From positions 33,741 through 97,740 of the forward strand of contig JAFYYP010000030.1 in assembly GCA_017557505.1 (NCBI GenBank): 64,000 bases of DNA. Direction: 5' to 3'. The DNA is from Bacillota bacterium. Its GTDB lineage: Bacteria > Bacillota > Clostridia > Peptostreptococcales > Anaerovoracaceae. A model generated the notes under the pieces. The model was not told the DNA's origin, did not search any database, and saw only the letters and a list, made by a program, of their open reading frames with translations. Made by a program: the position numbers and the translations under genes. Positions within the stretch are counted from its first letter, which is position 1. Each line of letters begins with the position of its first letter. Shown piece after piece: positions 50,055 to 54,301 of this stretch.

Positions 50055-50297
50055 ATGAAGCAGGTTTTGTTATGGATAATTGCACACAGCCGTACGTTCC
50101 TGATTATTTACGGGATCACTTTTTGTGTCATCCTTTCGATCATACTCGAAAACATGATTTCCCCCGGCTACACGCAAGATGATGCGTACCGGTGGATGTA
50201 TAAGGGGAACATCGCATTGGCCGTCCTGGCCATCTCCATCGGCCTTTTGGTATTGCTGCGATATCTGTATTTCGAGGGGATACTGCAGTTGGGGTGA
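50055..50297 (+). CDS. Small membrane protein with two predicted spans
   Basis: An 80-residue protein with hydrophobic segments near residues 5-32 (LLWIIAHSRTFLIIYGITFC) and 52-72 (NIALAVLAISIGLLVLLRY), separated by a short polar loop (NMISPGYTQDDAYRWMYKG). It starts 3 bases after the preceding stop and has no clear ribosome site, so translation is probably coupled. Unknown function. Both codon use and the clean two-span pattern support a real gene. Confidence 0.6.
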   Translation: MKQVLLWIIAHSRTFLIIYGITFCVILSIILENMISPGYTQDDAYRWMYKGNIALAVLAISIGLLVLLRYLYFEGILQLG

Positions 50298-50313
50298 AAC
50301 GGAAGAACAAAAG

Positions 50314-50337
50314 CCTCGCAACAAACCGTTGCGTGAG
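50314..50337. repeat. Short hairpin before the XRE gene
   Basis: CTCGCAAC and GTTGCGTGAG can pair (one mismatch or bulge) around AAACC. No T run follows. It overlaps the candidate -35 TTGCGT at 50329-50334, which has TATTAT 18 bp downstream (50353-50358), so it might be an operator. Confidence 0.35.
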
Positions 50338-50385
50338 AATTTCAGCGGTTCATATTATACTGGAACCGGTGAAAGGAACCGGCAT

Positions 50386-51069
50386 ATGAATGCAGTGGCG
50401 AAAAATCTGAAAACGATACGGACGCAGAAGGGCTATACGCAGGACGATCTTGCACAGGCGCTCCACGTGACCCGCCAGACCGTCAGCAGCTGGGAAACAG
50501 GTCGCAGCGAACCCGATATCGAGATGCTCACCGCGTTGGCGGAATTCCTGCAGACGGACGTGACCACGCTGATCTACGGCCCTGCAAAGACGCCTTATCA
50601 GGCCATGCAGGAAAAATACAAGGTCTGGAGCCTGATTCTGGGGCTGTTTGTGCTTGCCGGTCTTGTTGCTTACGTCTGGTTGCAGCCCCGGCTGCTGGAT
50701 TATCGACGCCAAACTTTTGATATGCGTCCCGGCATTTTGTATCAGACGCTTCTGGTCCCGGTCTGTACTGTTGCCACAGGTGCGCTGCTTCCCTGCATCC
50801 TGTCCCTGTGGATCAATACAGCGATCCGTAAGCCTTGGCGCTATCTTTTGTTGGTGTTTGGCGTTCTGGCGCTTGTCCCTATTCTGGGTACTGCATTACA
50901 ATTTGCAATATGGGAGCAACCGCCAGGTTTTACGGGTGTGTCTCAGCTGACTCTATGGTTTCCGTTTGCATTGAGGAATATGATAAGCTTGGGTATTTGG
51001 TCACGTGGCATGCCTTTCCTCGGCGGAATCTGCCTCTTTCTTGGGTTAAACCGGGAGATCGATCATTAA
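50386..51069 (+). CDS. XRE family regulator with membrane domain
   Basis: A 227-residue protein. An XRE helix-turn-helix is at residues 6-62 (KGYTQDDLAQALHVTRQTVS), then about four hydrophobic segments: VWSLILGLFVLAGLVAYVW, TLLVPVCTVATGALLPCIL, WRYLLLVFGVLALVPIL and GMPFLGGICLFLGL. It is predicted to tether a DNA-binding domain to the membrane. ATG 50386 was chosen because AAAGGA lies upstream and the HTH starts there; the longer frame from 50179 overlaps the small membrane gene. GC content is lower than in the flanking core genes. Target unknown. Confidence 0.82.
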   Translation: MNAVAKNLKTIRTQKGYTQDDLAQALHVTRQTVSSWETGRSEPDIEMLTALAEFLQTDVTTLIYGPAKTPYQAMQEKYKVWSLILGLFVLAGLVAYVWLQPRLLDYRRQTFDMRPGILYQTLLVPVCTVATGALLPCILSLWINTAIRKPWRYLLLVFGVLALVPILGTALQFAIWEQPPGFTGVSQLTLWFPFALRNMISLGIWSRGMPFLGGICLFLGLNREIDH

Positions 51070-51751: not shown

Positions 51752-51779
51752 AAACTGCGCCGGCAGCGGCGCAGTTTTT
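51752..51779 (+). terminator. Terminator of the LURP-one gene
   Basis: A 10-bp stem (AAACTGCGCC / GGCGCAGTTT) with a 6-base loop runs into a T run. Confidence 0.85.
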
Positions 51780-51793
51780 GTATGTCCTGAAAT

Positions 51794-51818
51794 GGATATT
51801 TCTCTTGACGAAATATCC
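51794..51818. promoter_or_regulatory. Operator copy A of the HTH-Uma2 gene
   Basis: A perfect inverted repeat GGATATTTC-N7-GAAATATCC. It covers the -35 hexamer TTGACG. Confidence 0.7.
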
Positions 51819-51833
51819 GTTAATGGATATAAT
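51805..51833 (+). promoter_or_regulatory. Promoter of the HTH-Uma2 gene
   Basis: TTGACG and TATAAT are 17 bp apart. The -35 sits in operator A and the -10 in operator B. Transcription would begin near 51840. Confidence 0.75.
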
Positions 51834-51849
51834 GAAGATGGAAATATCC
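51825..51849. promoter_or_regulatory. Operator copy B of the HTH-Uma2 gene
   Basis: GGATATAAT-N7-GAAATATCC, with the same size and spacing as copy A and exactly 31 bp downstream (about three helical turns). The left arm departs from symmetry only where it doubles as the -10. Confidence 0.7.
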
Positions 51850-51869
51850 ATGAAGGGATGGTGATTGGA

Positions 51870-52670
51870 ATGATCATCGAAGAAATGCAGAAAAGACGGA
51901 AAGAACTGGGCCTGACCTACGCGGAACTGGCGGAAAAGTCCGGCGTGCCGCTCAGCACGGTGCAGAAGATCCTGGGTGGTTTCACGGAGAACCCGAACTA
52001 CCGGACGGTGCTTGCACTGGAAGAGGTGCTGCAGCCGGAAAGGCCGTATTACTATGTTGAAGATGAACCCTATCCGATGGTGGAAGAAGCCCGGGTGGAG
52101 TATTTGGCTAAAAAAGATGGCAGCTATACGATCGAAGACCTGGAGCGTCTGCCGAAGGGAGTTCGCTGCGAACTTTGGGATGGAGAGATGGTCTTGCTTG
52201 CTGCTCCCAGCGATGAACACGAACAGGCGGTTACTTATCTGTTTGGCGAATTGTACGTCTATGTAAAGAAAAACGGAGGTAATTGTATCGTTTATGGTTC
52301 AAACCGGGGTGTGCGAAAGCATGAGGATGACAAGAATTATCTGTTACCCGACGTACAGATCGTGTGTGACCCATCGAGAGAGGATCACATTGGTCCGGAT
52401 CTGGCGATTGAGGTCACGTCGCCTTCGTCAGAGAAAACGGATCTTAACCTGAAACCGGCGAAATATGAGTGGTTCGGTGTGCGGGAATACTGGGTCGTTA
52501 TGCTGCAGCAGCAGAAGGTGGTCGTTTACGATCTCGAACACGATGCGCCAGTCGCGTTCTACTCGTTCGAAGATAAAGTGCCTGTTGGTATCTACGGGGG
52601 TGACTGTGCGATTGATTTCAATGATTTAAAAGCATACCTGAAAAAGTGGGAGAAGAAAGGAGGCCTTTAA
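51870..52670 (+). CDS. HTH domain fused to Uma2-family (DUF820) endonuclease-like domain
   Basis: A 266-residue fusion. Residues 1-50 form an XRE-like helix-turn-helix (LGLTYAELAEKSGVPLSTVQ). Residues 80-260 or so form a Uma2/DUF820 domain of the PD-(D/E)xK fold, with the acidic residues in YLLPDVQIV and LAIEVTSPSS and a Lys in the NLKPAKYEWFGVREYWVV block. Uma2 proteins are abundant but their biological substrate is unclear. ATG 51870 is chosen because the promoter and operators fill 51794-51849, leaving only starts after 51840; ATG 51858 and GTG 51861 are alternatives. GC is lower than around it. The HTH probably represses its own gene. Confidence 0.83.
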   Translation: MIIEEMQKRRKELGLTYAELAEKSGVPLSTVQKILGGFTENPNYRTVLALEEVLQPERPYYYVEDEPYPMVEEARVEYLAKKDGSYTIEDLERLPKGVRCELWDGEMVLLAAPSDEHEQAVTYLFGELYVYVKKNGGNCIVYGSNRGVRKHEDDKNYLLPDVQIVCDPSREDHIGPDLAIEVTSPSSEKTDLNLKPAKYEWFGVREYWVVMLQQQKVVVYDLEHDAPVAFYSFEDKVPVGIYGGDCAIDFNDLKAYLKKWEKKGGL

Positions 52671-52672
52671 GA

Positions 52673-54301
52673 ATGGCACTACACTTTGACCCTCTTGACC
52701 ACAAATATCCCTCCGTGCGCTACCCGGTGTATGCCCGGAGCGGCATGGTGAACTGTTCCAGTCCGCAGGCCTCTGCCGCAGGCCTGGAGGTGTTGCGCAA
52801 GGGCGGAAATGCCATGGACGCGGCGGTCGCGGCTGCCGCGACATTGACCGTGGTGAAGCCGACGTCCAACGGACTCGGCTCGGATGCGTTTGCTTTGATC
52901 TGGTCTGAAAAAGACCGGAAACTATACGGCCTGAATTCCAGCGGCCGCGCACCGGCGCTGGCGACGATAGAAACTGTTCTGGCGAACAGGCAGGCGGCAG
53001 ATGGCAAAATGCCCCGCGACGGCTGGCTGCCGGTGACCGTACCCGGTGCGCCGAAAGCCTGGGCAGAGGTGGTCTCCCGCTTTGGAAAACTGAGCCTCGC
53101 GGAAGACCTGGCCCCTGCGGTGAACTATGCCCGCAATGGCTATCCCTGCGGCGCCAATCTGGCGGCCATGTGGGAAAGCGGCATCCGCACTTACAGAAAA
53201 CATGGCGACGATCCGGTCTATCAGGCGTTGTTCGATACTTTTGCGCCGGGCGGCAAAATGCCCAAGGCGGGCGATATGATCTTTCTGCCCGACCACGCGG
53301 ACACGCTTGAGGAGATCGGCGCGACGAACGCCGAGAGCTATTACACCGGTGAACTGGCGAAGAAGATCGACGCGGAAAGCCGCAGGTTTGGCGGCTTGCT
53401 GCGTTATGAAGACCTGGCAGCGCACAAAGCCGACTGGGTCGAACCCATCTCCGTCAACTACCGGGGCTACGACGTCTGTGAGATCCCCCCGAACGGGCAG
53501 GGTATCGTCGCGCTCATGACTTTGAATATCCTGAAAGAATTCGAACTGACAGGCCGTGACAGCCTGCAGACGGTCCACCGCCAGCTCGAAGCCATGAAGA
53601 TGGCTTTCGCAGACGCGTTCCGCTACGTTACGGATCCGGCGCATATGGACATCGATTATCACGACCTGCTGCAGCCGTCCTACGGCGCGATGCGTGCCGC
53701 GGAAATGACGGACAGAGCGCAGGTCTGGACGCACCGCCTGCCGCCCAAGAGCGGCACGGTTTATCTGTGTGCAGCGGACGGGGAGGGCAACATGGTGTCC
53801 TTTATCCAGTCCAACTATAACGGCTTCGGCTCGGGCATCGTCGTGTCGGGAACAGGCATCGCGCTGCAGAACCGCGGCGCGGACTTCTCTCTCGATCCTG
53901 TCGCTGCTAACTGCTTAAAACCGGGCAAGCGCAGCTATCATACGATCATTCCAGGTTTCCTGATGCAGGGTGGAAAACCCGTCGGACCGTTCGGGGTCAT
54001 GGGGGCGTACATGCAGCCGCAGGGCCACGTGCAGGTCGTGTGCAACGCGGTCGATTTCCGCCTGGATCCGCAGCAGTGTCTTGACGCGCCGCGCTGGCAG
54101 TGGCTGCGGGATGGCAGGGTCATCCTGGAGCCCGGTTTCGGCGAGGAATTCGTGCAGAAACTGCGCGAAACCGGCCATGATGCGAGCATCGAACCAAACT
54201 ACAATCTGTTCGGCCGCGGCCAGATGATCGTCCGTCTTGAGAACGGCGTGCTGTGCGGAGGTACGGAGCCGCGCTGCGACAGCAATATTGCATGTTATTG
54301 A
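52673..54301 (+). CDS. Gamma-glutamyltransferase family protein, YwrD-like
   Basis: A 542-residue Ntn hydrolase of the gamma-glutamyltransferase family. The family blocks are NAMDAAVAAAATLTVVKPTSNG, the self-cleavage threonine T362 in SGTVYLCAAD, and FGSGIVVSGTGIALQNRGADFS. The nucleophile block is TVYL where classical enzymes have TTHxS, which places it in the YwrD-like branch. No signal peptide is seen, so it is probably cytoplasmic. EIPPNGQGIVALMTLNIL is also conserved. AAAGGAGG lies 9 bases before ATG 52673. It follows the Uma2 gene after 2 bases and could be read from the same promoter, though the functions look unrelated. Confidence 0.88.
   Translation: MALHFDPLDHKYPSVRYPVYARSGMVNCSSPQASAAGLEVLRKGGNAMDAAVAAAATLTVVKPTSNGLGSDAFALIWSEKDRKLYGLNSSGRAPALATIETVLANRQAADGKMPRDGWLPVTVPGAPKAWAEVVSRFGKLSLAEDLAPAVNYARNGYPCGANLAAMWESGIRTYRKHGDDPVYQALFDTFAPGGKMPKAGDMIFLPDHADTLEEIGATNAESYYTGELAKKIDAESRRFGGLLRYEDLAAHKADWVEPISVNYRGYDVCEIPPNGQGIVALMTLNILKEFELTGRDSLQTVHRQLEAMKMAFADAFRYVTDPAHMDIDYHDLLQPSYGAMRAAEMTDRAQVWTHRLPPKSGTVYLCAADGEGNMVSFIQSNYNGFGSGIVVSGTGIALQNRGADFSLDPVAANCLKPGKRSYHTIIPGFLMQGGKPVGPFGVMGAYMQPQGHVQVVCNAVDFRLDPQQCLDAPRWQWLRDGRVILEPGFGEEFVQKLRETGHDASIEPNYNLFGRGQMIVRLENGVLCGGTEPRCDSNIACY

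Follow-up and report, generated by a model that had tools for sequence, protein, structure and literature searches.

What governs a gene that joins a DNA-binding domain to a predicted nuclease in a single polypeptide, and which DNA might such a protein recognize? The question is raised by a locus in a 64,000-nucleotide stretch of contig JAFYYP010000030.1 (here, the window), from a Bacillota bacterium of the family Anaerovoracaceae. One gene of this stretch encodes P0001, a protein with an XRE-like helix-turn-helix (HTH) domain fused to a Uma2 domain. The initial annotation proposed that P0001 represses its own gene through two identical 25-bp operators, one over the -35 and one over the -10 element. 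Comparison with relatives makes it quite probable that P0001 combines an autorepressor and a predicted nuclease in one chain, with an HTH domain that would act on GGATAT half-sites in its own strong promoter. The two proposed operators are better read as one dyad, ATATCC-N6-GGATAT, centred at 51821.5, plus two outer half-sites.

The domain assignment stands, with both matches above the Pfam cut-offs (HTH_3, E = 4.7e-9, 36.6 bits against a cut-off of 23; Uma2, PF05685, E = 5e-26, 91.6 bits against 27). The promoter region and the gene contain the following features:

51794..51799, plus strand: outer half-site 1, GGATAT
51805..51810, plus strand: -35 hexamer, TTGACG
51813..51818, minus strand: inner half-site 2, ATATCC (GGATAT on the minus strand)
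51825..51830, plus strand: inner half-site 3, GGATAT, which runs into the first half of the -10 hexamer
51828..51833, plus strand: -10 hexamer, TATAAT
51844..51849, minus strand: outer half-site 4, ATATCC, near the expected transcription start (placed near 51840 by rule only)
51870..52670, plus strand: HTH-Uma2 gene (P0001, 266 amino acids), with HTH_3 at residues 7-55, including F38, and Uma2 at residues 89-225, including H117, D161, E181 and K195

A longer listed open reading frame (ORF) from 51792 was not used because it would begin within the operator, before the promoter.

Both 25-bp inverted repeats are present in the window with the sequence, the 31-bp offset and the overlap with TTGACG and TATAAT that had been described. 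Positions 51794-51818 read GGATATTTC-TCTTGAC-GAAATATCC and positions 51825-51849 read GGATATAAT-GAAGATG-GAAATATCC; the two hexamers are separated by a 17-bp spacer and match the consensus at 11 of 12 positions. The pattern GGATATNNC-N7-GNNATATCC, with up to 2 mismatches, occurs twice in the 64 kb against 0.17 expected, and 1 of 100 shuffles reached two. The four half-sites share a centre of symmetry at 51821.5 and can therefore be read as one nested dyad, in which the -35/-10 spacer contains ATATCC-GTTAAT-GGATAT (51813-51830), flanked symmetrically by the two outer half-sites.

In the genome of the window (2.2 Mb in 56 contigs, 87% complete), exact GGATAT-N13-ATATCC is found only at the two places in the window, and one mismatch adds a single place. 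The search for further sites that the initial annotation had suggested thus gives no further exact site in this 87%-complete genome, and exact sites do not support a wider regulon of the operator. With up to 2 mismatches, the pattern matches at 69 places and the reversed one at 17, an excess that may reflect composition or secondary sites.

Relatives were collected with P0001 in whole-genome searches over overlapping sets, counting matches fused or not (44 of 197 genomes at E of 1e-10; 47 of 393 and 95 of 349 at 1e-20). In a class-wide sample, only 7 of 391 genomes, the window's own included, have a match at E of 1e-25. The 197-, 393- and 349-genome searches yielded 157 ORFs with both domains; removal of 5 that lack a start codon near the HTH and of identical proteins left 144 HTH-Uma2 genes with upstream DNA, and 130 after proteins at least 85% identical or with less than 110 nucleotides upstream were dropped. 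Only one ortholog was found (L002, the same contig as L121), with a protein about 77% identical to P0001. Its promoter has ATATCC-N6-GGATAT at the spacing of the window and retains the downstream outer half-site, with GGATAA as the upstream one. Both outer half-sites are located 1 bp further out, which puts the doubling at 32 bp. Among the relatives, a literal search for GGATAT upstream finds the arrangement of the window only in this ortholog; the search was therefore widened to repeats of any sequence. Among the upstream regions compared, the expectation that homologues share the same doubled repeat thus holds for the ortholog alone. The initial annotation had named such a result as refuting its proposal, but the relatives appear to carry operators with sequences of their own.

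By this comparison, the predicted operators of the family are mostly arrays with an 11-bp period. Upstream of the 130 genes, identical 5-mers at lag 11 number 385, against 27.9 expected in shuffles (z 54.5), and at least one such pair is found in 89 genes (18.5 expected), with further peaks at 22 bp (z 22.1) and 33 bp (z 10.8). The repeated box, with its consensus read by eye, is A(A/T)(T/C)GGnnn and occurs mostly in direct repeats. The lag-11 signal is absent from the upstream regions of 23 standalone Uma2 genes (z 0.7) and from the interior of the coding sequences (z -0.1), as well as from 69 further standalone Uma2 upstream regions from viral contigs and class-level loci (10 against 13.4 expected). 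The controls show weak signals at other lags, namely lag 12 in the coding sequences (z 4.3), lag 19 in the 23 standalone upstream regions (z 4.1) and lag 12 in the 69 (32 against 14.8).

Several observations on these upstream regions stand apart. The 130 regions contain an unexplained lag-41 peak (87 identical 5-mers against 19.4, z 12.0). In L185 (G403:C78) and L068, an HTH-less Uma2 ORF preceded by box-like repeats is located directly upstream of an HTH-Uma2 gene that has no repeats of its own by eye, which suggests one operator serving a two-gene cassette. A subgroup of L014, L017, L022, L027 and L133 has recognition-helix variants such as SVPTVQR, APITVQR and SVITVKR; in the first four, whose upstream regions were read by eye, TTTGATAT-type repeats replace the GG boxes.

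The evidence that ties these boxes to the protein comes from residue 38, which an alignment with the 434 repressor places just past the recognition helix. A phased GG pair was found in 112 of the 130 genes, and 96 of these scored at least 5, as do 14% of mononucleotide shuffles; a gene was omitted from any cell in which its two boxes differ. In a mutual-information scan of HTH residues against box bases, the top four scores all belong to residue 38 (z 8.5, 7.5, 6.3 and 5.6) and cover the three bases after GG and the base before it (70-85 of the 96 genes in those cells). Among pairs with less than 45% identity in the Uma2 domain, a shared residue 38 adds 0.195 to box similarity, a value reached in none of 2,000 permutations; the next position adds 0.078. 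A first within-cluster permutation put 93 of the 96 genes into one cluster and was rerun with finer clusters; within clusters of more than 45% Uma2 identity, the effect is again reached by 0 of 2,000 permutations.

Individual pairings were tested on all 130 genes, with at least two copies of a word required on either strand and with Bonferroni correction. Three survive: Q38 with GGCAA (6 of 8 genes, against 4 of 122 others), F/Y38 with GGATA (8 of 12, against 9 of 118; 6 of 10 without the window and its ortholog) and T38 with GGAAT (9 of 24, against 5 of 106). I/V38 with GGAAA goes in the same direction, below Bonferroni significance, and R32 is found with GGGTT in 3 of 7 genes against 1 of 123. 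The window itself pairs F38 with GGATAT. Compared with the window's protein, the other six F/Y38 members with GGATA that were examined show 38-40% identity in the Uma2 domain, and they fall into pairs with one another. Prediction of boxes from a partner gene points the same way. For distant pairs, a partner chosen by five HTH residues gives a box similarity of 0.583, against 0.418 when chosen by Uma2 identity and 0.394 when chosen by random residues (standard deviation 0.029; highest of 200 draws, 0.478). Over all pairs, Uma2 identity predicts nearly as well as the five residues (0.670 against 0.713), as expected from descent.

A number of results weigh against so simple a picture. The 11-bp period is not universal: 41 of the 130 genes, that of the window included, have no identical 5-mer at lag 11, smaller excesses occur at several other lags (z 3.0-6.7; e.g., z 6.7 at lag 9 and 4.8 at lag 12), and the stretch from -200 to -136 also has a lag-11 z of 3.6. 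The code is loose, in that A38 genes carry several boxes, L010, L144, L130 and L048 are exceptions among the F/Y38 genes, and the 9 of 118 other genes noted above have GGATA twice as well. E38 with GGTTG goes in the expected direction but fails Bonferroni correction (0.13). The residue 38 effect is weaker in clusters of more than 50% Uma2 identity (24 of 2,000 permutations), and the choice of the five residues for the partner prediction drew in part on the same data. Of five HTH-Uma2 genes from beyond the family sample, read by eye, two show clear 11-bp arrays. L197, which has I38 together with V28, nevertheless carries GGATA, its GGATATTT box occurring three times at 11-bp intervals, and L198 (E38) has an 11-bp array with GGTTG. 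The other three are L203 (E38), with GGTTG/GGTTA at a mixed spacing of 10-11 bp, L208 (K38), with GATAT twice, 10 bp apart, and L186 of Eubacterium eligens (E38), with GGTTA boxes and no clear period.

Taken with these exceptions, the comparison suggests that each relative has its own control sites and that operator sequence tends to track residue 38. An operator on the gene's own promoter that matches its HTH was found by covariation, which is strong, if indirect, evidence for binding of the protein to its own promoter. Self-control through its own HTH, as initially annotated, is thereby supported. Insulation between paralogs of one genome is not supported: residue 38 is shared by 11 of 74 within-genome pairs against 9.4 expected.

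In the mechanism that these data favour, the N-terminal HTH of P0001, similar to that of the 434 repressor, would bind the GGATAT half-sites in its own promoter, with residue 38 largely setting the bases after GG. Copies of P0001 on the inner dyad, in the -35/-10 spacer, and on the two outer half-sites would block RNA polymerase. The gene would stay low and come on strongly once P0001 disappears, is titrated or is engaged elsewhere, presumably in response to some inducer. Relatives would follow the same design with bases of their own, most with direct repeats at 11 bp that are phased to the -35 element and some with CC-N6-GG dyads.

Whether the Uma2 part still acts as a nuclease is a separate matter. 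D161 and E181 are found in 130 of 130 proteins, K195 in 129 and H117 in 128, and by a residue matching made in this analysis they would correspond to the predicted PD-EXX-K site, as given in PMC551604. It is possible, though doubtful, that P0001 is a regulator only, in which Uma2 catalysis has been lost and the domain serves oligomerisation or ligand sensing; the window's protein does deviate from the family at the well-conserved Uma2 positions W103, E118, N145 and M211. Against this, the near-invariance of the predicted catalytic residues in 130 proteins exceeds the apparent needs of a scaffold, and P0001 is predicted to be a nuclease.

The layout of the operator bears on the parse of the initial annotation, with separate 25-bp operators on the -35 and on the -10. 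Both repeats match well and the ortholog keeps the doubling. Among inverted forms in the family, it is nevertheless the divergent CC-N6-GG that is enriched (11 hits in 9 genes, against 0.57 expected; these include the ortholog, L069 with two hits and, in the terminator-like stem-loop upstream of the window's gene, one GC-rich match). No convergent spacing passed the threshold, and the convergent 25-bp form has three hits in the family, the two of the window and a GC-rich match in L155. The inner spacing is also unchanged between window and ortholog, whereas both outer half-sites have shifted. Two separate operators are therefore unlikely, and a single dyad with outer half-sites is preferred. 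Of the 9 genes in which CC-N6-GG occurs, 8, that of the window included, fall among the 41 without a lag-11 pair, as if dyads and direct repeats were alternative layouts. The same scan gave 4 hits each at N = 14 and N = 26 (z 3.4), and a looser inverted-repeat scan shows small excesses at distances of 10, 12, 15, 21, 39 and 41. Residue 43, which is R in 122 of 130 proteins, is N in that of the window and might underlie its layout.

The position of the boxes favours repression. A rule-based call assigns a strong sigma-70-type promoter to 106 of the 130 fused genes and to 3 of the 23 standalone Uma2 genes. GG immediately precedes the -35 hexamer in 44 of these 106 promoters (5, 7 and 5 in three flank shuffles), and 101 of 227 phased boxes are at this one phase. 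Strong-promoter genes with phased boxes number 73 (13-16 in shuffles). In 19 of them every box is upstream of the -35 region, as would suit an HTH that activates its own promoter; but at least one box overlaps the core promoter in 50 of the 73, the promoters are already near consensus, and the dyad of the window covers the spacer and part of the -10, all of which makes activation improbable.

A reading of the repeats as phased A-tracts or UP-element-like DNA, which would bend the promoter or strengthen it without any HTH binding, is very improbable, even with a period of about one helical turn ahead of strong promoters, given that bent DNA would not covary with residue 38, that arrays are absent at standalone Uma2 genes and that inverted CC-N6-GG forms exist. 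It is just as improbable that another XRE regulator binds the sites, such as the HTH_3 protein encoded within 50179-51069, two genes upstream, since box sequence tracks residue 38 of the HTH-Uma2 protein itself and the ortholog retains the operator in a 5.7-kb stretch (L217) with no match to the HTH_3 gene at E of 1e-4.

Around the gene, two further features were recorded:

51752..51777, plus strand: terminator-like stem-loop after the upstream LOR-domain gene (11 pairs, 7 of them G-C, T-rich tail; chance expectation 0.8 per region in shuffles)
52673..54301, plus strand: gamma-glutamyltranspeptidase-like gene, beginning 2 nucleotides past the HTH-Uma2 stop

The transpeptidase gene is probably cotranscribed from the HTH-Uma2 promoter, and perhaps under the same operator, because of the 2-nucleotide gap and because a simple rule finds no promoter-like site in 52300-52673. 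A conserved operon was rejected, as the ortholog has a different gene at this place; in the stretch of the relative G186 that was covered, the transpeptidase gene adjoins pckA and there is no P0001 match at E of 1e-20. The HTH-Uma2 gene is a single ORF flanked by genes for the LOR-domain protein and the transpeptidase, and lacks the separate toxin and antitoxin genes of a type II toxin-antitoxin locus. The likeness to a toxin-antitoxin locus in a single chain, drawn by the initial annotation, is a hypothesis.

By sequence, the solved Uma2 relatives of P0001 are 6okh and 9y1l. Its Uma2 part is matched by the PDC-S03 models of PADLOC (E of 5e-25), where PDC is presumably a label for phage-defence candidates. 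Makarova 2009 (PMC2701414) describes the Uma2 family as a likely solo toxin, mostly forming cassettes of paralogs. A scan of IMG/VR with two peptide patterns gave 77 related loci (L218-L294), mostly Uma2 forms with no recognisable HTH. None of the 77 contains an HTH-Uma2 ORF by profiles at an HTH E of 1e-4, yet two matches, L219 and L220, start within the HTH region, and a related HTH without Uma2 is found in L293. GenBank phages gave one hit, a 181-residue Uma2 protein with no HTH. A phage origin of the fused form is not supported by these two scans, although possible in view of L219, L220 and L293.

P0001 shares with the predicted PD-(D/E)XK nucleases of the Uma2/COG4636/DUF820 group its Pfam match, the H/D/E/K positions and the solved relatives, and differs in its fusion to an XRE HTH with a predicted operator of its own. 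It weakly matches 434 Cro (E of 0.0015) and the 434 repressor (E of 0.015-0.019, with residues 5-49 of P0001 aligned to residues 5-49 of the chain). Both 434 proteins regulate their own promoters; the HTH-Uma2 half-sites, in contrast, form 11-bp direct repeats or CC-N6-GG dyads, and the specificity signal peaks at residue 38. The C proteins of restriction-modification systems are likewise, in the material consulted, regulators on their own promoters in a nuclease system, whereas P0001 joins regulator and predicted nuclease in one chain, and the adjacent genes covered by the profile scan include no methyltransferase. The cooperative, head-to-tail occupancy of direct repeats by BldC, as described in PMC5859096, offers a model for filling 11-bp arrays; BldC is a MerR-like protein, not XRE, with no nuclease. 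The terms "HTH" and "helix-turn-helix" are absent, by a term search, from the text of Feder and Bujnicki 2005 (PMC551604) as retrieved, and a literature search, with subscription literature mostly outside its reach, recognised no paper on HTH-Uma2 autoregulation. Autoregulated HTH proteins as such are known; what appears to be new is one fused to a predicted nuclease.

More tentatively, each HTH-Uma2 protein may act as a one-component nuclease switch that reads DNA by a code in which one residue is central and carries its own operator array, fixed in helical phase with the sigma-A -35 element. If the protein were lost or titrated, e.g., by box-bearing foreign DNA or by DNA occupying the Uma2 domain, a strong promoter would open and a burst of nuclease would follow; the HTH could also aim the nuclease at boxed DNA. 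Uma2/DUF820 genes are abundant in some bacteria, with no established role found in the literature searched. For one branch of them, a DNA target can now be predicted for every member, and one residue apparently sets it. Binding, repression and cleavage become testable on defined DNA, where proteins combined with fitting or foreign operators would supply internal controls, and about 100 natural protein-operator pairs (96 called) would serve for studying how XRE specificity changes.
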